A DNA stretch of 42,746 bases from contig JAFMKE010000003.1 of assembly GCA_017853115.1 (NCBI GenBank), positions 1 through 42,746 on the forward strand, written 5' to 3'. Below the pieces are notes generated by a model, which ran no database searches, was not told the origin of the DNA, and saw nothing but the letters and a program-made list of their open reading frames with translations. Positions 35-30,483 of this stretch are shown one piece after another. The stretch is from Verrucomicrobiota bacterium (lineage in GTDB: Bacteria > Bacteroidota > Bacteroidia > Chitinophagales > UBA8649). Positions within the stretch are counted from its first letter, which is position 1, and every line of letters starts with the position of its first letter. A program made the translations under genes and the position numbers.

Positions 35-2344
35 TTGAATTACTGGTTGCTTTTATTGCCATTTTTCATTCTGATTGTAGGCTATTTCTCTTTTCCATTC
101 TTAATTAGTTATGCCAAGCGCATCAATTATGTGGATGAAGGGACGAGCAGAAAGAGACATCGGGATAATATTCCACCTATAGGTGGTTGGCTTGTTTATT
201 CGGCCTTTGCTCTGACCTTCTTTTTTGCCTTGCTTTTGCCTAATTTTTCTTTTAAAAATTTAGGTGTTTTCCTCAGTGTATCTGGCGTGTTTTTATTAGG
301 AGTAATTGACGACAAGTACCCTATGAATGCCAGTAAAAAGTTCGCTGGTCAGTTTTTGGTTGCTGCGCTTTGTGTATTCTTAGGAGAAGTTCATTTTGCT
401 GAATATATGAGTTTGTATGGCATCCCTTATCTTTTAGGCCAAGTGTTGTGTATGGTCGCTATTGTTTTTGTCATTAACGCTTATAATTTGGTGGATGGAA
501 TTAACGGCTTGGCCGCTATGCTTGGCATAGTTGCTATAGGTTTTTTGAGTTTGTGGCTGTTTAGTGCAGGCTTATTTTCTTATTTTATTCTAGCCTTGAG
601 TGTTATCGCAGCCTTACTTGTATTTCTTCGTTATAATGTATTTCAAACCCTGATTTTCTTGGGTGATAATGGATCCATGATAATCGGCTTACTAGCTACT
701 ATTTTTGCGTTTACATTTATCAAGACCTTTACGGGATTTGACAGCGTGGTTCTTACAAAGTGTAATGCAGAAGTAGGTATTGCCATAGCAGCAATGGCCA
801 TACCCATCGCTGATACCCTGCGATTGTTTTTCCTTCGACCATATTATCTAGCTAAGTCACCATTCAAAGCGGATAGAAACCACGTTCATCATTTGCTTTT
901 GCGCATCGGCTTTAGTCACGCCGAAGCTTCTTTATTACTTTTTGGTTTGTCCATCTTGCTTGTATTGGCCGCATTGGCCGCCCAGGATCTTGGCAGTATA
1001 GCCGTAATATTTATTACTTTTTCTATTTGTGTTGCTTTTCTTATGGCAATTGATTTTCTGGTTTTTAGTCGTTACCGACGAAAAGTAAATAAGAAAACGG
1101 TATTCAATAGCTTGCAAAATGTTTCTCAAGCTCTCGGTAATCCGGTATTCATTGAATACACTTTTGCTATTAGCATGTTCTTACTGGTTATTTCGATTCC
1201 GTTTCACCGGGTTTCCACCAGTATTCCAACCATAATTCTAATTTTCTCCTTTATAGCTTTGAGCATACGTAACCTATTAATCTTTAAAGGAGATTTTATA
1301 ACTAAGATGAAAGGTGAAGTTGCTGCCTTTCTTAAGCATCCGTATACTTGGCTTATTCTAGTTTTCCTTCTTTATACCTTGATACACCTATTCTTTATCC
1401 AAGCTGAAGGAAGGTGGAACAAATGGACAATCTATTTATTACTTTTGGTGTATTGGCTTAGTTTATTCCAATTTGAAAAGATAGTTCAGATTAGACCAAG
1501 GATATTGCTTACGGCTTTTATTGCGGGCTGCCTGGGGTTTGGAATCTATATTTTGATGGAATCCTTTGTGGAGTTTCCAGATAAAGGCTGGAATGGATTT
1601 ACCTACAATGAATTATTGAGCAATGTAAAGGCAAACCCAGTTACGCATTCTTTATACTACAACCTTGCAATATTATTTTTGGGAAACAATTACAAATTTC
1701 TAAAGCGAGAGGAATGGCGAATATCGTATTGGTTAATGCTCGTATTCTTCATTCTTATGGTATTTCTGTGTAGTTCGAAGGTTGGGATATTTATCTTGGC
1801 ACTTTCCTTAAGCAGCGCTATTTACAACATGGTAAGAAATAACAAAACGGCCTGGTTGATAATCGGAGTTATTGGATCGCTTGCCTTGTTAATTGGATTG
1901 CGATTAGGACTCTTTACCCTTGAATATATCCAATTGGCTTTTGATTCGAGGTTGGTGGTCTGGATGGAAACCAAGCAAATTATAGCGCAAAACTTGCTAA
2001 CTGGCGTTGGTGTTGGAAATTCAGTAGAAACCTTGCGTTTGGCTTTTGAGAATATAGACTTTGTTCAAGGCCTAGAACAAGCGTACAATGCACAAAATCA
2101 ATTTTTGGAATCTTTCCTAGAAACCGGCGTATTTGGCTTTTTAATTCTCTGCTTGTTTTTTGTTTATTCCTTGTATAAATCCATCCAAGAGAGGAATAAA
2201 CTCTATTTTGTATACATCCTGGTTGTCGGTATCTACATGATGACTGAGTCACTCTGGCAAACGCAGATGGGAATGGTTTCCTTTGCCTTCTTCAATGCGC
2301 TTTTCTTGGCTTCGTTTTATCACAAAGAGACTATTTCTTCCTAG
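35..2344 (+). CDS. Fusion protein: N-terminal WecA/MraY-like undecaprenyl-phosphate sugar-1-phosphate transferase plus C-terminal O-antigen ligase/polymerase (Wzy_C/WaaL-like) membrane domain
   Basis: 769-aa ORF with TTG start. N-terminal motifs: GVIDDKYP, NAYNLVDGINGLAA, FLGDNGSM, HVHHLLLRIGFSH (WecA/MraY family). C-terminal half has many TM segments plus WMETKQIIAQNLLTGVGVGN and NAQNQFLESFLETGVFGF, resembling O-antigen ligase signatures. Confidence 0.82.
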   Translation: MNYWLLLLPFFILIVGYFSFPFLISYAKRINYVDEGTSRKRHRDNIPPIGGWLVYSAFALTFFFALLLPNFSFKNLGVFLSVSGVFLLGVIDDKYPMNASKKFAGQFLVAALCVFLGEVHFAEYMSLYGIPYLLGQVLCMVAIVFVINAYNLVDGINGLAAMLGIVAIGFLSLWLFSAGLFSYFILALSVIAALLVFLRYNVFQTLIFLGDNGSMIIGLLATIFAFTFIKTFTGFDSVVLTKCNAEVGIAIAAMAIPIADTLRLFFLRPYYLAKSPFKADRNHVHHLLLRIGFSHAEASLLLFGLSILLVLAALAAQDLGSIAVIFITFSICVAFLMAIDFLVFSRYRRKVNKKTVFNSLQNVSQALGNPVFIEYTFAISMFLLVISIPFHRVSTSIPTIILIFSFIALSIRNLLIFKGDFITKMKGEVAAFLKHPYTWLILVFLLYTLIHLFFIQAEGRWNKWTIYLLLLVYWLSLFQFEKIVQIRPRILLTAFIAGCLGFGIYILMESFVEFPDKGWNGFTYNELLSNVKANPVTHSLYYNLAILFLGNNYKFLKREEWRISYWLMLVFFILMVFLCSSKVGIFILALSLSSAIYNMVRNNKTAWLIIGVIGSLALLIGLRLGLFTLEYIQLAFDSRLVVWMETKQIIAQNLLTGVGVGNSVETLRLAFENIDFVQGLEQAYNAQNQFLESFLETGVFGFLILCLFFVYSLYKSIQERNKLYFVYILVVGIYMMTESLWQTQMGMVSFAFFNALFLASFYHKETISS

Positions 2345-5460: not shown

Positions 5461-7488
5461 TTAGTTTTTCACCAGTTTAAACGGATAATTTTGCCCTGCA
5501 GTTCGAATGTGTAAGAAATAGATTCCAGGTGCTAAATCCCCATAATTTAGGATGGAAACTTGCTCCTCAATCTTGCTCTCAGAGAGCAATTGTCCTTTCA
5601 AGTCATATAAGGAAACTACTACCTTTTCTCCCGAAAACTCTTTCAATTCGAGAACTAATCCCTCGTTCAGATAACTAAATCCATAGGTGTTAAACAGCTT
5701 AGGCTTATTAGAGTCCTTATATTCTCGAACGCCACTGTAAAAATCATTGCAAGTCCCTTCAACAAATTTTCGCTCCAGCAATATGTTAAATATGCTACAA
5801 GTATGAACGCCATTAAACAAAAGGGTATCAGCTAGGAATAGATTAAAGGCGGCTTGCGTAAGACTCGAATTGGGCATATTATAATACATGACTTCAATGG
5901 CCAATTGATCTGCAACCGTTGCTCCTAAATCTAAGTACAAGTCGTTGAGAACCGCCGACCAAATCTCTCCGTTAAAGTAAATATTCTGATTCGAGGAGAG
6001 GTCTAGTTTTGTTTTGTTTGAATTACTGATTCTTCCTGCCCAGAATTCATTGTGACCGTCCCACGAAAAGACTTTGTTCGCCTCAAAATTATCATACTGC
6101 CTAGAGTAAGTGGTGGCTAGGTAGTCCCCAAATCCTTCGTCCAAAGCTCTTCGCTCGTCACCGCTATTGGTTTCTGGCGAAGCAAAGGCACTTATTGCAT
6201 GACCATATTCGTGTATAATCACGTCTGCATCTTCCGCATCATCTACACCTCCTTCGCCAAAAACCAATCGAGGAGGGCTCGTTGGGGTAAAGAATGAATT
6301 GTCTGCCCCATTGTTACCATGAGCATCTACCAAAATGACTTCCGATGCTAAATTGGTAAAACCTAAGCTTTCCCAGTAGCGTTTGAAATTATTGAGGTGG
6401 TAGAAGGCATTAACATCTTCAAATTCTGTCAAATTTCGTGTGAAATCAAAGCTGTCCGTGGCACTATTCGCCGGATTGGTGAAGGGCAGGCTGAATTCAC
6501 TAATTATAAAATCAGCATTGACGAGATTGAAGCTACCGCCTGAAAAATCTACGGGTAACTCACCCCATACTTGCTCTTGTGCAAGGCTTGGGTAATTATA
6601 ATCTTCAATAATTATCTCAGTAGTATAGTTACTAAGGTCTTCTGTAATGGCTGTATTGAAACCTAAAATGTTTCCATTGCCATCCAAAAATATATTTTCA
6701 AACACTTGTTGTATAATTGGTGCAGAGAAATTATTTATATAACTTTCTGTTGGTACGTTGAAGGTTAAACCGTCATAGCTAAAGTTGATTCCATTAGCTG
6801 TAATCGTAGTATTTCCAGTATTATTCAGGTTTTGAATCACTAAGGCAGTTGTGTCGAAGCGCAAGGCATCTTGATAAGTTCCGCCATACAATACATTCGC
6901 GCTTGTCAAGGGATCGGGCTGAAAAACTTTTGCATACGCTGTTGTGTCGTTGTGGTATTTAAGGATATTTTCGAAATAAACTTCGTCATTTATCCAAAAT
7001 CGATGGGCGTAATAATCTTTTTCCTCTTGAATACCTAGTTCTTTTCGAACCAACTTCATTGTGTCGTCAAGAAGAATGTAGCAGAGATTTTCATCAGATT
7101 CATTCGAGTTGAAATGAATAGTATTCCATTCTTCTAGCAGCGGTAGGGTAGTTTGCAACAAACGAGGATGATTATTAAAATCAAGTAAAATCTTGACTAA
7201 AACTTGTTCTATTGGATAAGTGCCATAGCGGCATTGAAAAGTATAATTGACACCACCAAGACTTTGTTTTTCGTATAATAAGGCGAGTTCAAGATTTTGA
7301 TAGTCTTTGAAAAAATCATCGACAAAGTCTTGCACGGATTCTACGCGCACAGAATTACTTACATCTTGCGGCTTGTTTTTGAAAGGAAGGATATACGGCC
7401 CCATATCTTGAGCAATGCTTAATTCGCCCAAAGTGCATAGCACAATCATCAAGAAAAATGACTTGATATGTTGAAAATCACCACTCAT
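5461..7488 (-). CDS. Secreted gluzincin-type zinc metallopeptidase (M4/M36-like) with C-terminal T9SS sorting domain
   Basis: N-terminal hydrophobic signal; VIIHEYGHAISAF (HExxH) followed by ALDEGFGDYLA (third-ligand Glu); C-terminal VVVSLYDLKGQLL...LNYGDLAPGIYFLHIRTAGQNYPFKLVKN resembles type A T9SS CTDs. Confidence 0.85.
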   Translation of the reverse strand: MSGDFQHIKSFFLMIVLCTLGELSIAQDMGPYILPFKNKPQDVSNSVRVESVQDFVDDFFKDYQNLELALLYEKQSLGGVNYTFQCRYGTYPIEQVLVKILLDFNNHPRLLQTTLPLLEEWNTIHFNSNESDENLCYILLDDTMKLVRKELGIQEEKDYYAHRFWINDEVYFENILKYHNDTTAYAKVFQPDPLTSANVLYGGTYQDALRFDTTALVIQNLNNTGNTTITANGINFSYDGLTFNVPTESYINNFSAPIIQQVFENIFLDGNGNILGFNTAITEDLSNYTTEIIIEDYNYPSLAQEQVWGELPVDFSGGSFNLVNADFIISEFSLPFTNPANSATDSFDFTRNLTEFEDVNAFYHLNNFKRYWESLGFTNLASEVILVDAHGNNGADNSFFTPTSPPRLVFGEGGVDDAEDADVIIHEYGHAISAFASPETNSGDERRALDEGFGDYLATTYSRQYDNFEANKVFSWDGHNEFWAGRISNSNKTKLDLSSNQNIYFNGEIWSAVLNDLYLDLGATVADQLAIEVMYYNMPNSSLTQAAFNLFLADTLLFNGVHTCSIFNILLERKFVEGTCNDFYSGVREYKDSNKPKLFNTYGFSYLNEGLVLELKEFSGEKVVVSLYDLKGQLLSESKIEEQVSILNYGDLAPGIYFLHIRTAGQNYPFKLVKN

Positions 7489-18241: not shown

Positions 18242-19213
18242 TTGATGCGCTTAACTTTATTCGCTTTATTTCTTTTTGTCAATTCGCAAGCATTTGCTCA
18301 GCAATGGGTCCAATTTACCCAAGCCAATGCTTATGGTTCTTTCTTGAATCCCGGGCATATTGGATATCAAAGCAACTTAAATGCCACTGCTGCGCACAGA
18401 AGTCAGTATGTTGGTTTGGGTACCCGAGCCATTGGCACTCAATTTGTTTCTTTTAGTTCGCCCTTTCTTAGTTCCAAATTTGGACTGGGTTTTAGATTGC
18501 TTAATGATTTCATTGGTGTCCAACGATTTACGCATATAGATTTGGGCGGCGCTTATCATTTTATGCAGGGTAAACATCGATTGTCTGCTGGATTTCAGCT
18601 GGGGATAGTTCAGCTAAGTATAAATGGCGCTGAGCTAACTGCTCCTGATGGAAGCTATTCGTCTGGGGTAGTCGTCCACAATGATCAAGTCCTTCCTCAA
18701 GAATCTTCATCTGGTTTGGCCCCTACCATTAGTGCAGGATTGCTATATGGTTATAAAAAATTTGAAGTGGGTGTTTCAATGCAGCATGTAAGTTCTCCAC
18801 AAATTGAGCTCTCCAATACGGCGAATGGAACATTAATAATTTTATCGCGTACAATAAATTTATATTCGTCTTACGTTATAGAGGCGAATAACGTGAAAGT
18901 TAAACCAACGTTCTTTAGTAAAACAGACTTCAAGGAATGGCAAGCACAGATGAACCTAGAAATTGATTGGCGTAAGTTGATTGTTGGTGCGGGTTTTAGA
19001 GGTTATAGTGGCTTGAATAACGACGCTATAATTGGTTTGTTTGGATTCCGAGTGAAAGAAAAGATTCGATTGGTGTATAGCTATGATTACAATGTTTCTT
19101 TTTTGAATAATTCGAATTCAGGTTCTCATGAGCTTAGTTTGAGGTTTGATTTACCAAAAAGTTTTAAACAAACCGTAAAAAGTAATAAAATTTTTAACCC
19201 AAGATATTTATAA
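18242..19213 (+). CDS. porP: T9SS membrane protein, PorP/SprF family
   Basis: Signal peptide; QQWVQFTQANAYGSFLNPGHIG..., GLGFRLLNDFIG, YSYDYNVSFLNNSNSGSHELSLRF; directly upstream of gldK. Confidence 0.9.
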   Translation: MMRLTLFALFLFVNSQAFAQQWVQFTQANAYGSFLNPGHIGYQSNLNATAAHRSQYVGLGTRAIGTQFVSFSSPFLSSKFGLGFRLLNDFIGVQRFTHIDLGGAYHFMQGKHRLSAGFQLGIVQLSINGAELTAPDGSYSSGVVVHNDQVLPQESSSGLAPTISAGLLYGYKKFEVGVSMQHVSSPQIELSNTANGTLIILSRTINLYSSYVIEANNVKVKPTFFSKTDFKEWQAQMNLEIDWRKLIVGAGFRGYSGLNNDAIIGLFGFRVKEKIRLVYSYDYNVSFLNNSNSGSHELSLRFDLPKSFKQTVKSNKIFNPRYL

Positions 19214-19242
19214 AAAAATATTACTTTAGCGCGGTGATTGTT

Positions 19243-19271
19243 TTGCTTTTTATCAAAGAGTATTATATTTA
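19243..19271 (+). promoter_or_regulatory. Putative promoter TTG-N18-TATATTTA upstream of gldK
   Basis: TTG at 19243-19245 and TATATTTA at 19264-19271, 33 nt before the gldK ATG. Confidence 0.5.
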
Positions 19272-19303
19272 CACGCTTTAAAATTGCTATTAAAAGACAA
19301 AGT

Positions 19304-20563
19304 ATGATGAAGTTTCAATCTTTAGCCCTAACAATTCTTTCTTTTGGAGTTTTGATTTTATCAGGATGTGGGGGAAGTTACAATGGCCAACTTCTTGGAG
19401 AGTTAGATAGGCCCAATTGGCAGCCAGAAATGCCTTATGGTATGGTGTACGTGCCTACAGGTTTTTTACATATTGGACCATCAGACCAAGATGTAAATCA
19501 TGCCTTGTTGGCTCAAAGTAAGTCGATTTCAATAGCAGGCTTCTTTATGGATGATACGGAGATAACAAATAATGAATATCGTCAGTTCGAGCACTGGGTG
19601 CGCGATTCAGTAGCTCACAAGTTGTTGGGTAACATCATTGTAGATGAAGAATCTGGCTTAGAGCGAATTGACTGGAGTATCGACATCGATTGGGAGGATA
19701 CTGAGACTAAAGAACTTTTAGCGAGTATGGTTTATCCGAAAGATGATCCATTGGGTGGAGGTCTTAATACTACGAAGTTGATTTACGAATATGTTTGGGT
19801 TGATTGGCAAACAGCGGCTAAAGAGCCTAATATTGAAAGAGAAGATTTGGCTATGCAAGAAGAAGTTGAGATTTATCCAGATACCTTAGTTTGGATTCGT
19901 GATTTTTCTTATTCTTACAACGAACCATTCGCAAGAAACTATTACAACCATCCTGCTTTTGATGATTATCCAGTTGTTGGTATTACATGGGATCAAGCGA
20001 ACGCTTTTTCAGCGTGGAGAACTGGATTCTACAATGGCTTCAAAAAACAACAAGGTTTGTCGGTATTAGATGATTTCCGTATCCCAGTAGAACATGAGTG
20101 GGAATATGCTGCGAGAGGAGGTAAAAAACAATCTCCTTATCCGTGGGGTGGTCCATACATCAGAAACAGTCAGGGTTGTTTGTTGGCTAACTTTAAGCCA
20201 GGAAGAGGAAACTACCCGGAGGATGGCGGTTTGTACACCGTGCGTGCTGATGCATACTGGCCGAATGATTACGGTTTGTATAACATGGCTGGAAATGTGG
20301 CTGAATGGACGTCTTCAGCATTTTATGAAAACTCTTACAATTTTATTCATGATCTTAACCCTGATATTCGATACGATGCGAATGACAGTGAGCCAAATAC
20401 CATGAAGCGTAAGGTGTTGAGAGGTGGTTCGTGGAAAGATATAGGATATTATATTCAAACAGGTACACGTCACTGGGAGTATTCTTTTGAAGCGAAAAGC
20501 TACATCGGATTTAGATGTGTTTCTACTTACTTAGGTAGAGATTATAGAGATGCTTCATATTAA
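19304..20563 (+). CDS. gldK: GldK/PorK T9SS ring lipoprotein (FGE-sulfatase-like fold)
   Basis: Lipobox ILSGCGG; GMVYVPTGFLHIGPSDQD, MDDTEITNNEYRQF, GNVAEWTSSAFY, LRGGSWKD. Start moved to 19304 (MMKFQS). Confidence 0.95.
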   Translation: MMKFQSLALTILSFGVLILSGCGGSYNGQLLGELDRPNWQPEMPYGMVYVPTGFLHIGPSDQDVNHALLAQSKSISIAGFFMDDTEITNNEYRQFEHWVRDSVAHKLLGNIIVDEESGLERIDWSIDIDWEDTETKELLASMVYPKDDPLGGGLNTTKLIYEYVWVDWQTAAKEPNIEREDLAMQEEVEIYPDTLVWIRDFSYSYNEPFARNYYNHPAFDDYPVVGITWDQANAFSAWRTGFYNGFKKQQGLSVLDDFRIPVEHEWEYAARGGKKQSPYPWGGPYIRNSQGCLLANFKPGRGNYPEDGGLYTVRADAYWPNDYGLYNMAGNVAEWTSSAFYENSYNFIHDLNPDIRYDANDSEPNTMKRKVLRGGSWKDIGYYIQTGTRHWEYSFEAKSYIGFRCVSTYLGRDYRDASY

Positions 20564-20594
20564 ATTTGAATTTTATATACTATTTATTTAATAA

Positions 20595-20611
20595 GTTAAT
20601 CGAAGATTAAC
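20595..20611 (+). repeat. Inverted repeat GTTAATC-GAA-GATTAAC in the gldK-gldL intergenic region
   Basis: Perfect 7-bp arms with 3-nt loop, read directly. Confidence 0.6.
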
Positions 20612-20647
20612 CCTAAAGACTATTATTAAAAACTAAAAAAAACTAAA

Positions 20648-21283
20648 ATGGCAAAATCACAATCATTCTTTTTAAGTAAGTCAGGTAAAACATATCTTAA
20701 CTACGCATATTCGATAGGTGCGGCAGTTGTTATTGCGGGTGCGTTGTTTAAGTTGATGCACTGGCCATTCGCAAGTTTAATGCTAATTGTAGGTATGAGT
20801 ACGGAGGTGTTGATTTTTATTATTTCTGCTTTTGAACCTCAATTTGAGCATCATGATGAATACAAATGGGAGCGAGTATATCCTGAATTGGCGGATGATG
20901 AGTTAGGCTCGAAATCGATTACAAAGAGTTTAGATGATATGTTAGCCCAAGCTAATATTGAGCAGGAAATGCTTTCTCGCATTGGAGAAAACTTAGGTAA
21001 GTTAAGCACGAATGTGGCTAGCTTAAATGATATGGGAGATGCCATGTCTGCAACGCAAGATTATACCACCAACGCAAGAGCTGCAGCGAACGCGTTAGGT
21101 GAAGTTAAGGATGCTTACACGGCGGCTTTATCATCAGCAGATGGATTAGCTAGTACGCTAGATACAATGAAAGCAATTTCAGAATCAACTTCGGCAGTTC
21201 AAGCGGAAATGACAGAGTTATCATCAAATTTATCATCGTTAAATACTGTATACGGAAATATGCTTTCAGCAATGAAAAGCTAA
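20648..21283 (+). CDS. gldL: GldL/PorL T9SS inner-membrane motor protein
   Basis: Two N-terminal TM helices with GALFKLMHWPFA and STEVLIFIISAFEP motifs, then a helical cytoplasmic tail. Confidence 0.95.
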   Translation: MAKSQSFFLSKSGKTYLNYAYSIGAAVVIAGALFKLMHWPFASLMLIVGMSTEVLIFIISAFEPQFEHHDEYKWERVYPELADDELGSKSITKSLDDMLAQANIEQEMLSRIGENLGKLSTNVASLNDMGDAMSATQDYTTNARAAANALGEVKDAYTAALSSADGLASTLDTMKAISESTSAVQAEMTELSSNLSSLNTVYGNMLSAMKS

Positions 21284-21300
21284 GAGGCAGTTTATTTAAG

Positions 21301-21323
21301 TAATCAAATTCCTAAACCGATTA
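21301..21323 (+). repeat. TAATC-N13-GATTA inverted repeat in the gldL-gldM intergenic region
   Basis: Read directly; longer loop than the gldK-gldL element. Confidence 0.35.
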
Positions 21324-21336
21324 AAAATAGATTATA

Positions 21337-22977
21337 ATGGCAGGTGGTAAATTAACCCCAAGACAGAAGATGATTAATATGATGTATCTCGTATTAACTG
21401 CACTTCTGGCAATGAACGTATCCGCTGAAGTACTTGAAGCTTTCAAATTAGTTGAGACGGGTATCGAAAATTCAAACGATGTTTTAAGAGATAAAATAAC
21501 TTTTGTTGATGAAGCATTTCAAGGAAAAATGGCAGATTCTCCAGATGGTCCTGCGTTGTATGCGATGACGCAAGATGTTTCAGGCTTAACAGGTGAGTTG
21601 GTCGGTCTAATCAATGAAATCAAGGAAGATTTGTATGGTCTTTCTGGTCGAAATGAAGAGGGGGGCTTGGAAAAGATGGACGACATCGATTCTCCTTCTC
21701 GTTTGTTAGCTATGCCAGATGCCCCGGAGTTTAAGGGAGAAGCTCTTCAAAACAAGATTAAGGAAGTTAAGGCAAGGTTAACGGATATTATCAATGATAC
21801 GACGCTCGACCTTTTGGCTACTCAACGTACGGCTTTGATCAATAGTTTAACATTGACAGCTGAAGATGTAGAGGGTACTCAAGGTATCGAAGGAAAGTGG
21901 TATTACAAAAATTTCTTCCATGTTCCGTCTGCTGGTACAATGACCATTTTGACGAAGTTGGAGAATGATGCATTAAGTGCTGAGGCTACTGTTAATGAGG
22001 CTATTCTTAAAACGATTGGTGCATTGGATTTTAAATTCGATAAGTTAAGAGCTACAGTGCAAGCGCCAAAGTCATATCTTCCAGGTGGAGCTCAATATGA
22101 AGCGAACATCTTCCTAACTGCATCAAGTTCAGGTATTGTGGCTGAAACTTATGTGGGTAATTTAGATATGTCGAAATTCGAGAAAGATTCGTTGGGCGAC
22201 TATATCCCTTTTAACAGTGACGACGAAACGCCTTTTACAGGTGAACCTGTGATTGTTGAGAATGGTAAGTATTCAGCTGGAACGGCAGTGGGACAAAATG
22301 AGAAAAAGGGTGCTATCAAAATTCAAAATCCGAAAGGTGGGTTTGACTGGTATCCCTTCGAAATTTCTTACGAAGGAGCTGCTCCAGGTGGTTTCTCTGT
22401 TTCTCCTACAAAAATGAATGTATTATACATCGGAGTAGATAATCCGCTGTCCATTACCTTGGGAGATGCTAAGCCGGGCACAGAGCGTGTTTCTATCTCG
22501 CAAGGAAGTATTTCGGGAAGCGGTAACAATTGGACTGCTAAAGTAAGTTCAGTGGGAGAAGCTACGATTACGGTGGGAGGTACTACACCTTCAGGTGAGC
22601 CTGCCAAGTCGCAGTCAGCTAACTTTCGTGTGAAGTTAATTCCCGATCCAATCCCTACCTTGGGTGGTGACGAGATATTGACTACTAATGGTAAAGGCCA
22701 AAAAGGTACAATTAAGGCGAAAGGTGGTATTGTTCCATTATTAAAGGATTTCGATTTCGAAGCAAGGTTTAATGTAATCAGCTATGATTTTTATTTAACA
22801 TCAGGTGGTGAGCTCTTACCGGCTAGAGGTAATAGTGGGCCGTTGTTTAGTGGCGCAGTTACTAATCTTATTGATAGAGCAAAACCGAATGATTTAATGG
22901 TATTTGATAATATTAAGGTTCAAGGTCCTGATGGGAAAACGAGAAAAATCCCAAGTATGACTTTCCAGATTTTCTAA
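21337..22977 (+). CDS. gldM: GldM/PorM T9SS motor/periplasmic shaft protein
   Basis: MAGGKLTPRQKMINMMYLVLTALLAMNVSAEVLEAFKLV is diagnostic. Confidence 0.97.
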   Translation: MAGGKLTPRQKMINMMYLVLTALLAMNVSAEVLEAFKLVETGIENSNDVLRDKITFVDEAFQGKMADSPDGPALYAMTQDVSGLTGELVGLINEIKEDLYGLSGRNEEGGLEKMDDIDSPSRLLAMPDAPEFKGEALQNKIKEVKARLTDIINDTTLDLLATQRTALINSLTLTAEDVEGTQGIEGKWYYKNFFHVPSAGTMTILTKLENDALSAEATVNEAILKTIGALDFKFDKLRATVQAPKSYLPGGAQYEANIFLTASSSGIVAETYVGNLDMSKFEKDSLGDYIPFNSDDETPFTGEPVIVENGKYSAGTAVGQNEKKGAIKIQNPKGGFDWYPFEISYEGAAPGGFSVSPTKMNVLYIGVDNPLSITLGDAKPGTERVSISQGSISGSGNNWTAKVSSVGEATITVGGTTPSGEPAKSQSANFRVKLIPDPIPTLGGDEILTTNGKGQKGTIKAKGGIVPLLKDFDFEARFNVISYDFYLTSGGELLPARGNSGPLFSGAVTNLIDRAKPNDLMVFDNIKVQGPDGKTRKIPSMTFQIF

Positions 22978-22990
22978 CTTTCAATACTAT

Positions 22991-23006
22991 TAAATCAAAG
23001 ATTAAC
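22991..23006 (+). repeat. TAAATCAAAGATTAAC element in the gldM-gldN intergenic region, similar to the gldK-gldL element
   Basis: 14 of 16 positions match TTAATCGAAGATTAAC from the gldK-gldL gap. Confidence 0.45.
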
Positions 23007-23035
23007 GTTATTACGCAAGTTGTAAAACAAGAATT

Positions 23036-23854
23036 ATGAAAAAGTTATTATCACTGTTTGTGTCCGCAGTTTGTATCTCTGGAATAATCCAGGCTCAGGA
23101 TGTAATTGACGGTGTCTACGAAAAGGTAGTTACGGTTGAAAAAGGAATCATCCCTTATGATGACATTCGTGAGGCTGATGTTTTTTGGTCCAAGAGAATT
23201 TGGCGGACTATTGATGTTCGGGAAAAAATGAACTTAATTTTTGCCTATCCTCAGCAGCCATTGATTGACATTCTGCATACAGCTGCTACCAATGGTGACT
23301 TAACTGTTTATGATATGACCGTGTTGAATGCTGATCAGTTTACAGAAGTTCTGAGTGTGGAGAAAGTTAAAATGATTGGTAACAGTGTAGATACGATTTC
23401 AAGAATCAACCCGATAACACTTCAACAGGAAGAAGTTATCCAAGTGAACGAATTTGATCCCGCAAAGGTTATTAAATATAAATTAAAAGAAGACTGGTTC
23501 TTTGATGAGGAAACGTCAACTTTTCAGGTTCGGATTATTGGTATAGCTCCAGTTATTGAATCCTATAGTTCTGATGGGAATTACCTAGGTGATGAAACTA
23601 TGTATTGGGTCTACTATCCAGATTTAAGACCAATTTTGGCGAAGTATGAAGCCTACAATACGGGTAATGATGCTATTCGTTTAAGTTGGGAAGATATTAT
23701 GGAGGCTAGATTTTTCTCGAGCTATATTACTAAAGAATCAAATGTATATGACCGTGTTATTCAAGAATACGCAACGGGCTTAGATGCTTTGTTTGAGTCA
23801 GACAATATCAAGCAAAAGTTATTTGAGTTTGAGCATGACTTGTGGTCATATTAA
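23036..23854 (+). CDS. gldN: GldN/PorN T9SS ring protein
   Basis: Signal peptide; READVFWSKRIWRTIDVREKMNLIFAYP; EDWFFDEETSTFQVRIIGIAP; MYWVYYPDLRP. Confidence 0.96.
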   Translation: MKKLLSLFVSAVCISGIIQAQDVIDGVYEKVVTVEKGIIPYDDIREADVFWSKRIWRTIDVREKMNLIFAYPQQPLIDILHTAATNGDLTVYDMTVLNADQFTEVLSVEKVKMIGNSVDTISRINPITLQQEEVIQVNEFDPAKVIKYKLKEDWFFDEETSTFQVRIIGIAPVIESYSSDGNYLGDETMYWVYYPDLRPILAKYEAYNTGNDAIRLSWEDIMEARFFSSYITKESNVYDRVIQEYATGLDALFESDNIKQKLFEFEHDLWSY

Positions 23855-25656
23855 GAGGTAAAAAAACGTAATACTTTGTCAGCTTTAGCCTGACCAATAA
23901 ATAAAGCGAGTTCTTCCAAAGAAGCTCGCTTTATTTTTTTTACCGAGCCAAACTCATTCAATAAAATTTCTTTTGTCTTCTTGCCGATGCCCGATATTTG
24001 ATCTAACTCGGATTGAATGAAATTTTTACTTCTTTGATTGCGATGAAAGCTAATGGCAAATCGATGGGCTTCATTTCGCAAATGTTGAATGACTTTCAAA
24101 CTTTCACTTTTTTTGTTGATATACAAGGGCAAGGAATCTCCAGGGTAATATATTTCCTCTAGTTTTTTAGCTATTCCAATAATCGGTAGTTTACCTCTTA
24201 ATCCAAGCTTGTCAATACTCTTTAAAGCAGAACTTAACTGACCTTTGCCTCCATCTACGATTACTAGGTTGGGTAGCTCTTTACCTTCTTTCAACAAGCG
24301 GCTATAGCGACGAAATACTACCTCCTCCATGCTTGCGAAATCATTAGGTCCTTGAACAGTTTTTATATTATAGTGTCTGTAATCTTTTTTTGCTGGTTTA
24401 GTGTTTCGAAACACCACCATGGAAGCTACAGGATTTGTACCTTGAATATTAGAGTTGTCGAAGCACTCAATATGTCTAGGAAGTTCAGTCAAGCGCAAAT
24501 CTTCTTGTATTTGTTTTAGAACGCGTTCAATACTACTTTCTTTTTTGGCTTGTTTCTCCTTGATATCGAAGTAATGCTGTTTTTGGGATACTAGATTTCT
24601 AAATGCTAAATCCAGGATCTTTTTCTTGTCTCCAGTTTTTGGGATTGTAAGTTTGGGACCCTCAAGTTCTATGGCAAATGGAATAACTATTTCATTAGCG
24701 TTTTCTTCTTCGTCTCGATCATTGCGGTGTTGCTCGATGACGAACATAAGTAATTCCTCATCAGATTCGTCGAGTTTAGATTTTAACTCAAAATTATAGG
24801 TGCTTACAATGGCTCCATTACGTATTTTAAGATAGGTAATAAAGGCTTTTTCCGGCACGGAGAGTATGTTATAGGCATCGATATGTTGGATGCTCACATC
24901 TACTACAGTGTTTTTCTCGCCATAGTTTAGTAGAGTTTCTATTCTTCGTTGGTAGTCATAAGCTTTTTCAAATTCCAGTTTTTCTTCAAATTCCGCTTGT
25001 TTTTCTTTTAAGTAGTTCACTGCCATATCAGATTTCCCAAGTAGGATGTTTCTGATCTGTTCGATGTTCTTCATATAATCGTCTTCTGACTGATGTGCTT
25101 CGCACGGGCCTAAACAATTATCAATATGGTACTCTAAACATACTTTAAACTTATTCTTTCTTATGTTTTCCTGATTTAAGGCAAGCGAACATGTTCTAAG
25201 TGGAAAGAGTTTAACAATGGTTTCGTATGCCTTTTTAGCATAGAACATAGAAGTGTATGGCCCAAAATATTCTGATCCATCGTTAATCTTTTTTCGGGTA
25301 AAGACAACTCTTGGAAATTTTTCATTTTTTATGGCTATCGAAGGATAACTTTTATCGTCTCGAAATTGAATGTTGTATTTTGGTCTTTCGTTTCGAATGA
25401 GATTTTTTTCAAGCAAAAGCGCTTCCCGTTCATCCTTCACAACGGTGAATTGAATGTCGCGAATTTGTTTTACCATTAGTCGAAGACGAAAACTATCATG
25501 AGTTTTAGTAAAGTAGGAACTTACCCGTTTTTTTAGATTTTTGGCTTTCCCAACATAAAGTAATCGCTGGTCCGCATCATAGTGGCGATACACTCCAGGT
25601 TTTTCTGGTAAGGAATGGATAAGATCTTTAATTCTTTCGGTATCTTTTTTACTCAT
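23851..25656 (-). CDS. uvrC: Excinuclease ABC subunit C
   Basis: GIY-YIG domain (PGVYRHYDADQRLLYVGKAKNLKKRVSSYF), IECFDNSNIQGTNPVASMVVF, ELPNLVIVDGGKGQLSSAL. Confidence 0.97.
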   Translation of the reverse strand: MSKKDTERIKDLIHSLPEKPGVYRHYDADQRLLYVGKAKNLKKRVSSYFTKTHDSFRLRLMVKQIRDIQFTVVKDEREALLLEKNLIRNERPKYNIQFRDDKSYPSIAIKNEKFPRVVFTRKKINDGSEYFGPYTSMFYAKKAYETIVKLFPLRTCSLALNQENIRKNKFKVCLEYHIDNCLGPCEAHQSEDDYMKNIEQIRNILLGKSDMAVNYLKEKQAEFEEKLEFEKAYDYQRRIETLLNYGEKNTVVDVSIQHIDAYNILSVPEKAFITYLKIRNGAIVSTYNFELKSKLDESDEELLMFVIEQHRNDRDEEENANEIVIPFAIELEGPKLTIPKTGDKKKILDLAFRNLVSQKQHYFDIKEKQAKKESSIERVLKQIQEDLRLTELPRHIECFDNSNIQGTNPVASMVVFRNTKPAKKDYRHYNIKTVQGPNDFASMEEVVFRRYSRLLKEGKELPNLVIVDGGKGQLSSALKSIDKLGLRGKLPIIGIAKKLEEIYYPGDSLPLYINKKSESLKVIQHLRNEAHRFAISFHRNQRSKNFIQSELDQISGIGKKTKEILLNEFGSVKKIKRASLEELALFIGQAKADKVLRFFTS

Positions 25657-27928
25657 ATTTACCCGGATCTATACCATTACTGGTAGTCTGCGTAAACTTA
25701 GAACAATCGAGTTCAACGGATAGTTCTTCGAGTGGTGCCTCAAAGGTAGAATCAAAATTATAGTTGAGGCTTGTATCCTTGTATACCTTGTCGATAAACT
25801 TTGCCCAAATGGGAAGGGCCGTACTTGCACCTTGTCCTAAAGATGTGCTTCTGAATCGAATGAACTTGTCATCACAACCAACCCAAACTCCTGCTAGTAA
25901 GTCCGGAGTAAATCCCATAAACCATCCATCTGAGTTATTTTGCGTCGTTCCTGTTTTACCAGCAATCTCCAAAGATTTTGGAATATTGTATTTAAATCGA
26001 ACTCTTGCTCCAGTAACTTCGCCGGGAGGACCATCAACTACATTGCGCATCATTTGCGTAATCACATAAGCGGTTTCTTCATCCAAGGCTGCAGTACTTT
26101 CTGCGAAAAATTCTTCAATTACATTGCCGTGGCTGTCTTCGATTCTAGAAACGAAAATAGGTTCATTGCTAGTGCCTTTGTTCGCAAATGTGGTATAGGC
26201 GCGAATCATTTCATAAACAGAAATATCGGCAACACCTAAACAAATTGAAGGGTAGGGTGGTATCTCACTCTCTATACCCATCTTCTTGGCAAATTCAACA
26301 ACAGCCTGAGCGCTCAACTCATGCATTAAGTAGGCGGTAACCTGATTTTTTGAAGCGGCTAATCCATCTTTTATTGCCATCATGCCATCCGATTCTCCAT
26401 CGGAATTTTTTGGGCAATACTGTTTTAAGATCGGCCATCTCGCGTCATTCGCTTCGAAACAAATCGGTAAATCTGGCACTTTAAAACAAGGGGAATATCC
26501 CTTTTCCTTAATGGCTAAGGTGTAAATAAGTGGTTTAAAGGTCGATCCTACTTGACGCTTTGTATTTTTGTTTACGTGATCGTATTGGTTATATTCAAAA
26601 TTTGCCCCACCAACCCAGGCTTTTACATAGCCAGTTTGCGGGTCAACGGCCATTAATCCAGTTTGCAAAATCATCTTATAGTACTTAACGGAATCCAGAG
26701 GGCTAAGCACTGTATCAATCATGCCATTATGACTCCATATTGACATTTCTCTTGGTGTTGTTATTAAAGCATGTGCAGCTGAATCTGATAATGAAGAATC
26801 ATTACTTTTAAAAATCTTCATTACCTTGTTTACAAGAACTTCACTTTGCTTAGCATACGATGCTTCTCTGTCATATTTATCGTAATATTCCCATGGATCT
26901 CGATTTTTCCAATGCTTGAAAAATTCATTTTGCCACTCACTTAAATGCTCATGAACTGCATCCTCTGCGTGTTGCTGCATACGACTATCGATTGTGGTAT
27001 AAACTTTCAAGCCGTCCTTATAAATATTATAGGGTTCTCCCGTGCTTGGATTAATATGTGAAGTTGCCCATTCTTTTAGCCATAATCTTAACTGTTCCCT
27101 AAAATGTGGGGCTAGTCCATTGATGTGATTAGTTGCTTTATAGTCGGTTACAATAGGCAGCGCTTGTAATGAGTCTTTAAGCTCTTTGGAAATATAGTCG
27201 TAGTTGTGAAGTTGATAGAGTACAACATTCCTTCGTTGCATACTGTTTTCCATATTGGATATGGGGTTATATTTTGACGGAGCTTTGAGCATTCCCACGA
27301 GGACCGCACTTTCTTCAATGCTAAGATTTTCGACCTCTTTGTTGAAGTAGGTTTTCGCGGCTGATTTTATTCCATAGGAGTTGTGCACAAAGTCTACCGT
27401 GTTAAGATACATGGTCAAAATTTCTTCTTTGGTATATGTTCTTTCCAACATTACGGACATAACCAATTCCTTAATCTTTTGACCAATACGTCCAAGTTTG
27501 GATTGCGGAATATCATGAAAGAGATTCTTTGCTAATTGCTGCGTTATTGTACTTCCGCCACCTCGCTTTCCCAAAAATACTATAGCTGAAATGGAACGCT
27601 TTAAATCGATGCCTGAGTGTTGATAGAAACGAACATCTTCGGTTGCCACCAATGCATCAATCAAATTTTGAGGTAACTCATGTGTTTGTGCATTGGAACG
27701 GTTTTTACTAAAAAATTTTCCAATAGGAATGTCTGAGTCGGCAGAAAAAATTTCTGTTGCTAACTCACTGTTAGGGTTTTCGATTTCAGCAAAGCTTGGC
27801 ATTTTCCCTAGTAGACCTTTTGAAACGCCGTAAAAGAATAACATCAGACTAAAAATCCCAATGAAAAACACAGCCCATAAGACTATGATGGGCTTCTTAA
27901 AATTTATTTTTTTCTGTGTTTTAGCCAT
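25649..27928 (-). CDS. Class A penicillin-binding protein (PBP1A-like transglycosylase/transpeptidase)
   Basis: GT51: ATEDVRFYQHSGID, GGGSTITQQLAKNLF. Transpeptidase: GSTFKPLIYTLA, GKTGTTQNNSDGWFMGFTPDL. Confidence 0.96.
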   Translation of the reverse strand: MAKTQKKINFKKPIIVLWAVFFIGIFSLMLFFYGVSKGLLGKMPSFAEIENPNSELATEIFSADSDIPIGKFFSKNRSNAQTHELPQNLIDALVATEDVRFYQHSGIDLKRSISAIVFLGKRGGGSTITQQLAKNLFHDIPQSKLGRIGQKIKELVMSVMLERTYTKEEILTMYLNTVDFVHNSYGIKSAAKTYFNKEVENLSIEESAVLVGMLKAPSKYNPISNMENSMQRRNVVLYQLHNYDYISKELKDSLQALPIVTDYKATNHINGLAPHFREQLRLWLKEWATSHINPSTGEPYNIYKDGLKVYTTIDSRMQQHAEDAVHEHLSEWQNEFFKHWKNRDPWEYYDKYDREASYAKQSEVLVNKVMKIFKSNDSSLSDSAAHALITTPREMSIWSHNGMIDTVLSPLDSVKYYKMILQTGLMAVDPQTGYVKAWVGGANFEYNQYDHVNKNTKRQVGSTFKPLIYTLAIKEKGYSPCFKVPDLPICFEANDARWPILKQYCPKNSDGESDGMMAIKDGLAASKNQVTAYLMHELSAQAVVEFAKKMGIESEIPPYPSICLGVADISVYEMIRAYTTFANKGTSNEPIFVSRIEDSHGNVIEEFFAESTAALDEETAYVITQMMRNVVDGPPGEVTGARVRFKYNIPKSLEIAGKTGTTQNNSDGWFMGFTPDLLAGVWVGCDDKFIRFRSTSLGQGASTALPIWAKFIDKVYKDTSLNYNFDSTFEAPLEELSVELDCSKFTQTTSNGIDPGKYE

Positions 27929-27954
27929 GATAAGACTCCTTCTGTGAGTTAAAC

Positions 27955-30483
27955 CTACTCGTCTTTGGTTGATTTTACTTCTTCTTGCTTGTTGCCACCA
28001 AGCTGAACTTCCTTGCTGCCCAATTTAAATTTTACTCCACCATCACTGGAAGAGTTGGTCTGTTCTTTAACATCAAGTGATTGCTTGTTTACCGGGATTT
28101 GTTTGTCAATTTTTAGTTTATCTATTGTTCCTTGGTCAACATCTCTTTGTACAGGTTGATCTGTTCCATTGAGATAAGATAAGATTTCTTCCGCCTTTTC
28201 TTGTTCCGCGGTATTAGCGTGATTATTCACCACGTATTCTAGTGAAGAAATATATGATTCACGAAGTTGTTTGCTACCCATGCACATTGCTTTGAGTAAA
28301 TCGAATTTAGCCATCATCATAGTTTGACTATATTTCTCCTTGGCTATTTCACATTGAATGATGACCTGGTCGAAATCTTTTATCTGATACAAAGCGTATG
28401 CTTCTTCATAAAAATCTGTTGCTTGATCTTCCAAATTTTTGGTTTCTACGCTACTTGGGTTAGTGAAGAACTGGCTAAATTTATTGTCGGGGTATTTTTC
28501 AAGTAAAGTTTGCTTTGCCTTCATTGCCTGAGCGCTTTGATTCATATCGGTGTAAAGAACATATAACTGGTAGAGCGCTTCTGGTTCATATCGGTTATCT
28601 GGGTGTAGCATATTGAGCATTACGAACATTTCTGCACTTTTCGGCAAGTTTTCTAAGCCGACTTTGTAAATAACCGCACCGTTGTAATACGCTTCAATAA
28701 TTTCTTTCCGGAGTTCCTTCTTTTCTTTTTCTGATGAAGGAATTGCATTGATCATTTCTTGATATTTAGCATCAATTCGCGCAAAATACTCGTCACTTTC
28801 TGTTTCGAATGAATCACCGCCGTCTGCTGTCATATTGCTTCCCTTCTCACTTCTCCTCCAGTCATCTTCCAGCAAGATATCACCCCAAGTTTGCTTGAAT
28901 TTTTTATATCCACTATTTCTACTTGCTTCGCTGTAGAAATACCAGGCATTCTTACCACTTGTTTTAGACGTTTGGGTACTGCTTGATGCGATTAACTGAG
29001 CCTGCTTATTTTTTTCTTCTTCCTTGATTTCGGCATCTATAATATCAACGGCTTGTTTGTAGAGAATACTCTCTAATTCTTTGGCAGGAATTTCACCCAA
29101 TACAAGCAGACTATCATTGATGGTGATAATCTTGAGGTAGTCTATCAACTCAGTTAATACTGTACTTCTATTTAGAATAACATCATAGGCTATGTAGCTG
29201 TTGTCAAGTAGACTAACTGCACTATCATAATAAGCCTGAGCCATGGGATAGTCTTCTTCCTCGTAGTAGATGTCAGCTAGTTTTCCGTATGAAATACCCT
29301 TTTGCTTTTGATTAGATTGCGAGACTTTCGCTGATTTTAACAAGAATTTTTTGGCATCTTCGATTACATCATTATTTAATGCAATCATAGCTTTTTCATA
29401 GTACAATTGATCGTAATAAGCACGATTCTTATTGTCTTTGGACATTTTAGCAATAAGCTTTAATGCCTCATTTTCTCCTCCTGGTGATTGTCGATTCATC
29501 TGGATGAGCTTCAATTTAGCGTAGAATATCATTTCGAAGTCAGCATTGCCTTTCATCGATTGCTTGTAATAATCTGCGGCAATTGTTTTTTGACCTAAAG
29601 ATTCATATACCTGCCCTGCTATAAATTGTAAACGGGCTTTATTTTTTTGTTTTTTTGTGTTTACTATCGCACTATCCAAATAGTTTATTCCGGTATTGAA
29701 ACTGCCCTGTGCGAAATACAAATAGGTATTGACCATGTCAACTTCTCTATCATAATCTTTAAGAAAATTTTGACTTCCTCGAATAAAGGTCAAAATATTT
29801 TCCGCTTCGATGTATTGTTCATTGCTTATGTATGCCTTTGCCAACCAAACCAAAGCGTCGCTGTATGCACTTTCGTGCGCAATAAGTTTCTTCGATGGAC
29901 GGATGTCTTTGCCTGCAAGTTCTTTTTCAATCAGCTTATCTTCTAGCTTTTTAGCTTTAGCCTTCTTCTTTTTGCTGTTTTTCTGCTTCTTGATTTTGTC
30001 TTTGCTACGGGCATCTACGCCTTCCTCAAAATTCGCAGTCACATACCGAAAGCAATTGATGGCTGAATCTAATTCACCTTGAAAATAGTATGCTTTTCCG
30101 ATGAGGACAAAAGCATCGTCACTCCAATTACTTATGCTATTGTCTACTCCCGTAATGTAGTTTTTCCCTTCTTCTTTCTCCTGATGTGTTTGGATGCTGA
30201 GGCGAGCCTTGGCAATCGTTGTATTCAAGCTTTCATTCTGGCTGTTAATATCTTCATAATGACCATAGCTTTCAAGTGGCAATATTTGTTCATAATCATC
30301 TTTATTGCCGTCACGTAAAGTTTTTAATTGATTATTGAATTGCTCATTCGCATTGAAATAACCATTATAATGACTTGTAAGGTCATGATAGGTTTGCTTT
30401 ACTATTCCCGCATTCTGTTTGGCGCAAGAATTCAGGAAAATCAGAACCAGAAAAAGGGGGAAGTGCTTTGCTATAGAATTCAA
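27955..30483 (-). CDS. porW: PorW/SprE-like T9SS TPR lipoprotein
   Basis: Lipobox LIFLNSCAK; KQTYHDLTSHYNGYFNANEQF; multiple TPR-like repeats; lysine-rich insert KKQKNSKKKKAKAKK. Confidence 0.88.
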   Translation of the reverse strand: MNSIAKHFPLFLVLIFLNSCAKQNAGIVKQTYHDLTSHYNGYFNANEQFNNQLKTLRDGNKDDYEQILPLESYGHYEDINSQNESLNTTIAKARLSIQTHQEKEEGKNYITGVDNSISNWSDDAFVLIGKAYYFQGELDSAINCFRYVTANFEEGVDARSKDKIKKQKNSKKKKAKAKKLEDKLIEKELAGKDIRPSKKLIAHESAYSDALVWLAKAYISNEQYIEAENILTFIRGSQNFLKDYDREVDMVNTYLYFAQGSFNTGINYLDSAIVNTKKQKNKARLQFIAGQVYESLGQKTIAADYYKQSMKGNADFEMIFYAKLKLIQMNRQSPGGENEALKLIAKMSKDNKNRAYYDQLYYEKAMIALNNDVIEDAKKFLLKSAKVSQSNQKQKGISYGKLADIYYEEEDYPMAQAYYDSAVSLLDNSYIAYDVILNRSTVLTELIDYLKIITINDSLLVLGEIPAKELESILYKQAVDIIDAEIKEEEKNKQAQLIASSSTQTSKTSGKNAWYFYSEASRNSGYKKFKQTWGDILLEDDWRRSEKGSNMTADGGDSFETESDEYFARIDAKYQEMINAIPSSEKEKKELRKEIIEAYYNGAVIYKVGLENLPKSAEMFVMLNMLHPDNRYEPEALYQLYVLYTDMNQSAQAMKAKQTLLEKYPDNKFSQFFTNPSSVETKNLEDQATDFYEEAYALYQIKDFDQVIIQCEIAKEKYSQTMMMAKFDLLKAMCMGSKQLRESYISSLEYVVNNHANTAEQEKAEEILSYLNGTDQPVQRDVDQGTIDKLKIDKQIPVNKQSLDVKEQTNSSSDGGVKFKLGSKEVQLGGNKQEEVKSTKDE

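Follow-up and report, generated by a model that had tools for sequence, protein, structure and literature searches.

A natural histidine-to-glutamine change in a primase–O-antigen ligase-like fusion protein of a Chitinophagales genus

A single open reading frame in the DNA analysed (the window, i.e. the whole 42,746-nucleotide contig C104 of a draft genome of 2.07 Mb in 203 contigs) codes for a WecA/MraY-like priming transferase joined to an O-antigen ligase (Wzy_C)-like domain, in which glutamine occupies the position of the catalytic histidine of O-antigen ligases. A bifunctional O-antigen ligase as such is already known from WadA. The features of the protein are compiled in Table 1.

Table 1. 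Features of the fusion gene and its product, with positions in the window
Feature	Residues	Positions	Strand	Basis or remark
Fusion ORF	769 aa	35..2344	+	TTG start, one frame; full length also in L011/L013, L014, L042
N-half, polytopic polyprenyl-phosphate sugar-1-phosphate transferase, 11 TM	1-345	35..1069	+	PF00953, Foldseek, topology
DD motif	D92-D93	308..313	+	invariant in alignment of full-length fusions
NAYNLVDGING motif	148-158	476..508	+	alignment of fusions
LGDNGS motif	209-214	659..676	+	alignment of fusions
HVHH motif	283-286	881..892	+	alignment of fusions
Linker, basic (RYRRKVNKK), predicted cytoplasmic	346-371	1070..1147	+	pLDDT largely <50
C-half, O-antigen-ligase-like Wzy_C domain, 12 TM	372-769	1148..2341	+	PF04932, 7TPG profile and Foldseek
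Site of first phosphate-binding Arg of WaaL (E. coli R215)	K582	1778..1780	+	comparison with homologues
Large periplasmic loop of ligase domain	624-693	1904..2113	+	AlphaFold2 model, topology
Second phosphate-binding Arg (E. coli WaaL R288), kept	R639	1949..1951	+	comparison with homologues
Catalytic-His position of H-N-x-x-L motif	Q687 (CAA)	2093..2095	+	CAG in L011

An in-frame TAA at positions 5-7 closes the frame just upstream, so the start of the fusion gene lies on the contig. That a priming transferase and an O-antigen ligase-like domain reside on one polypeptide, as a sequence-only reading of the window had proposed, was borne out by an uninterrupted ORF and by recurrence of the architecture in relatives. 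The fusion was found in a total of five genomes, all from the same Bacteroidota order and distributed over three families. A Chitinophagales MAG of the window's genus (G001, locus L011, JADHRO010000064.1) encodes a protein of the same architecture with 67% identity; the fusion of G051 (L014), from another family, is 44% identical (N-half 44%, C-half 43%), that of G074 (L042), from a third family, shares 29% identity with the window fusion, and that of G064 (L084), from the family of G074, is cut by the contig end. Since four other genomes contain the same fusion, an assembly error is ruled out; given the single-ORF relatives at three levels of identity and the one truncated by its contig end, a chance ORF, a frameshift or an assembly artefact can be regarded as excluded in practice. 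The chance that two adjacent genes were joined by assembly or annotation is minute: the ORF does start 35 bases from the contig end, and in G002, a genome of the window's family, wzy_C and wecA lie side by side as separate genes, but the same uninterrupted junction recurs at 67, 44 and 29% identity in independent genomes, and the gene order in G002 (wzy_C, then wecA) is the reverse of that in the fusion. Draws of 399 and 398 genomes from the order contained no fusion beyond the five, and draws from the class (395 genomes) and the phylum (396 genomes) no further one at thresholds too strict to pick up fusions that had diverged strongly or arisen independently, so that rarity holds for this fusion lineage only. 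Within this scope, the fusion is real but rare.

The WecA/MraY-like identity of the first half, also part of the sequence-only reading, was confirmed by profile, predicted fold, topology and motifs. Residues 77-227 match PF00953 with 92.5 bits (cut-off 27; 3.6e-26), and Foldseek comparison of the N-half of the AlphaFold2 model with the PDB retrieved MraY and DPAGT1 with a probability of 1.00 (best E 9.3e-7). All four PNPT motifs (DD, NxxNxxDG, GDxGS, HxHH) are intact and are located in cytoplasmic loops or at their margins. The motifs and the fold, taken together with what is known of the family, give good support to priming by the N-half on the cytoplasmic side of the membrane. The WecA model TIGR02380 (NCBIfam) scored 118.9 bits on the N-half and did not reach its cut-off of 326, and the sugar specificity is therefore not fixed. 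The N-half thus has all motifs, the 11-TM topology and the fold in common with WecA and related polytopic PGTs (PF00953; MraY, DPAGT1), from which the fusion differs in its C-terminal 12-TM ligase domain and in the TIGR02380 score below cut-off.

Residues 568-705 of the second half match PF04932 with 40.9 bits (cut-off 31.7; 2.4e-10); besides PF00953 and PF04932, the full fusion protein showed no Pfam match. An AlphaFold2 model of the whole fusion, built on an alignment of 44 rows, had a mean pLDDT of 86.1 and a pTM of 0.75, the linker being of low confidence at residues 352-361 and 366-370, and its C-half matched WaaL (7TPG) in a Foldseek search of the PDB. When the C-half was modelled alone (pLDDT 88.5, pTM 0.88), 7TPG was the one confident Foldseek match (E 1.3e-7, TM 0.63/0.64). 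A single-sequence phmmer search of the PDB gave no match, whereas a C-half profile matched the sequences of 7TPG (2e-17) and of the oligosaccharyltransferase 9RMK (4e-10). The topology assigned from predicted helices comprises 11 + 12 TM, with a cytoplasmic linker and a periplasmic 70-residue ligase loop; the loops of this predicted topology contain 26 K/R residues on the cytoplasmic and 7 on the periplasmic side. With a cytoplasmic priming site and a periplasmic ligase loop, the two halves are predicted to be topologically compatible. The Pfam score above cut-off, the predicted 7TPG fold and the topology thus agree with the O-antigen ligase/Wzy_C-like identity proposed earlier for the second half; ligase and polymerase roles of the C-half are not distinguishable by sequence alone.

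The stretch QNQFLESFLETGVFG corresponds to the H-N-x-x-L motif of WaaL, and its first Q occupies the position of the family's histidine. In a profile alignment, the Q687 column coincides with the histidine of 7TPG, His-313, which has been proposed as the acceptor-activating residue of O-antigen ligases (PMC10920833) and whose equivalents are H338 in E. coli WaaL and H324 in PglS. R215, R288 and H338 are important for the function of E. coli WaaL (PMC3643930), and the H324A variant of PglS has been employed as an inactive control (PMC12800693). Glutamine is encoded at this position in both species of the window's genus, by CAA in the window and by CAG in L011. Histidine is present in the fusions of G051 (L014), G074 (L042) and G064 (L084), and, among stand-alone Wzy_C proteins of the order, in 58 of the 58 examined, a sample which is weighted towards high-scoring members and includes the window genome's own copies. 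The assignment of a late transfer step to the window protein, made in the earlier reading, is not supported in that form, given this replacement of a histidine that every homologue examined other than the two fusions of the genus possesses. The second phosphate-binding arginine (R639) is Arg in the fusions as well as in 58/58 stand-alone homologues; at the first (K582), all fusions examined have Lys, while the stand-alone homologues have Arg (44/58) or Lys (10/58). Further near-invariant residues of the C-half, namely W643, G657, G659, N688, G698 and G701, are kept along with R639 in both species of the window's genus.

In the window genus, the fusion gene is located between genes resembling, by sequence, those of aldo/keto reductases and endonuclease III, the upstream side being seen only in L011; glycan genes do not adjoin it in the window or in L011. 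In G051, the fusion gene stands at the end of a cluster that also codes for a second Wzy_C, for glycosyltransferases and for a Wzx-like protein; the fusion gene of G064 faces a PF02397 priming transferase. The glycan neighbours in G051, G064 and G074 are Wzx/Wzz/GT or PGT-type genes. A 449-aa ORF without Pfam match, flanked in the G051 cluster by the Wzx-like gene and a glycosyltransferase gene (L056, 11503-12852, minus strand), is a candidate for a polymerase of an unlisted family. The window also contains a T9SS block at 18242-30483 (PorP/SprF, GldK, GldL, GldM and GldN, with PorW/SprE on the opposite strand), and at 5461-7488 (minus strand) a gene whose secreted product carries a T9SS type A sorting tail and weakly matches M36-like peptidases; an orthologue of it lies near the L011 fusion. 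The suggestion that the fusion serves T9SS-linked A-LPS was dropped for want of linkage: although T9SS genes are found on this contig at a distance of 16-28 kb, the glycan neighbours elsewhere are of the types named above, and in the window genus there are none.

In trees, the fusion N-halves fall into one clade (support 98/99), but stand-alone Wzy_C proteins are nested among the C-halves: the one on contig C175 of the window genome groups with the C-halves of the window, L011 and L014, and one of G051 with those of G074 and G064. A single clade of C-halves was rejected (AU p 0.008 and 0.0001), a result to be read with caution in view of long branches. One fusion with later duplication or exchange of the C-half and two separate fusions would both be compatible with these trees. 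In G002, wzy_C and wecA are on the same strand and about 20 bases apart according to the listed ORFs; the two genes that flank them also occur beside the G051 cluster (a murQ-like gene, 62%, and a second gene, 50%). In at least three genomes, the murQ-like gene and a conserved small gene flank wzy_C-bearing polysaccharide loci (L056, 14286-15671; L122, 7552-9021; L040 and L096). The window genome contains five PF04932, three PF00953 and one PF02397 genes. Its contigs C175, C11 and C67 carry three further clusters, each with Wzy_C and, as judged by eye, Wzx-like and Wzz-like proteins; the Wzy_C of C175 is the nearest stand-alone relative of the fusion's C-half.

As to function, the N-half would prime a surface glycan on the cytoplasmic side by loading undecaprenyl phosphate with a sugar-1-phosphate, probably of a HexNAc, taken from a UDP-sugar, a role that the polysaccharide genes beside the fusions of G051 and G064 fit, and the C-half, with its predicted O-antigen ligase (GT121-like) fold, would expose its active loop to the periplasm. 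In the relatives with intact histidine (G051, G074 and G064), the C-half probably moves the Und-PP-linked glycan to an acceptor; these proteins are most naturally read as bifunctional, pairing a primase with a ligase or a polymerase and having one site on each face of the membrane, and coupling of priming to ligation is plausible for them. In the window genus, the acceptor-activating histidine is replaced by glutamine while the other near-invariant residues are kept, and the C-half is presumably non-catalytic. It most likely still binds the Und-PP-glycan, without conventional ligation catalysis, and would tether the priming half or report the glycan load to it, while transfer could be performed by a paralogue with intact histidine, for instance the stand-alone Wzy_C of contig C175. 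For the window genus we favour, at an even chance, the reading that the primase is active and that the C-half tethered to it binds Und-PP-glycan but is non-catalytic or works by an altered mechanism. A bolder version, which we consider unlikely, is that this pseudo-ligase senses periplasmic Und-PP-glycan and gates its own attached cytoplasmic primase, so that entry into the pathway would be tied to turnover of the carrier lipid, the relatives with intact histidine representing the ancestral bifunctional primase-ligase.

Two other readings of the window-genus protein were weighed against the tethered primase. It might be fully bifunctional, combining priming with ligation or polymerisation, if Gln687 were tolerated or another base took over, perhaps with a different acceptor or stereochemical course. 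The similar conservation of both halves relative to the G051 fusion and the retained near-invariant ligase positions are consistent with this, the three fusions with intact histidine fit it directly, other polysaccharide polymerase families of the clan have Asp or Glu in place of the histidine, and WadA is a working bifunctional ligase. However, the histidine, important in E. coli WaaL and substituted in the inactive PglS control, is found in 58/58 stand-alone homologues and altered in the window genus only, and no acidic residue gained in both of its species lies at the motif position, E696 being nine residues away and the rest further; we consider full bifunctionality possible but somewhat unlikely. 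Alternatively, the ligase domain could be a functionless appendage of a WecA protein heading for loss, as the missing catalytic residue and the absence of glycan genes beside the fusion in the window genus might suggest. This is improbable, since about 400 residues with 12 TM have stayed intact across two species whose C-halves are only 62% identical (dN 0.31, with saturated dS, so that dN/dS is not computable), other near-invariant residues are retained, and the C/N rate ratio of the window-genus pair (about 1.7) is no higher than that of the G074/G064 pair with intact histidine (about 1.8) and so gives no hint of decay. On account of these ratios, the idea that selection on the C-half relaxed once the histidine was lost was likewise dropped. 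The His-to-Gln replacement looks like one specific change within a maintained domain rather than decay.

Priming commits scarce undecaprenyl phosphate, which ligation or polymerisation sets free again. Blocked late steps have been reported to sequester the carrier (PMC12826051). Placing the first and the last steps on one protein would be a natural device to balance carrier use. The occurrence of the same fusion family with and without the catalytic histidine of the ligase provides a natural experiment.

Text searches of the literature retrieved no characterised fusion of PF00953 and PF04932, in keeping with the sequence-only reading on this point; such searches are weak evidence, as the subscription literature was mostly outside their scope. 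That reading thus stands as regards the architecture itself, with a PF04932 match above cut-off, uninterrupted halves and no characterised example in the literature searched. The C-half of the window fusion shares the fold, the topology, the R288-equivalent arginine and the context of the HN motif with WaaL (PF04932, GT121, 7TPG), but unlike WaaL the fusion has Gln for the catalytic His and Lys for the R215-equivalent Arg, and is attached to a primase. The protein O-oligosaccharyltransferases PglL and PglS belong to the Wzy_C superfamily as does the C-half, whose profile also matches the oligosaccharyltransferase 9RMK; however, the C-half scores far better on 7TPG, and PglL and PglS are not fused to a primase. 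The closest precedent is WadA of Brucella, which combines a GT25 domain with an O-antigen ligase (PMC9938171, PMC10920833) and, described in 2023, is the only bifunctional O-antigen ligase found; its partner domain acts on the acceptor, not on the donor. Pfam detected no GT25 domain in the N-half of the window fusion, which is a PF00953 protein. Whereas the first domain of WadA, a GT25 of the soluble type, completes the acceptor (lipid A-core), that of the window fusion is a polytopic 11-TM primase that would start the donor (Und-PP-sugar), and WadA retains the histidine (H605) where the window fusion has Gln687.
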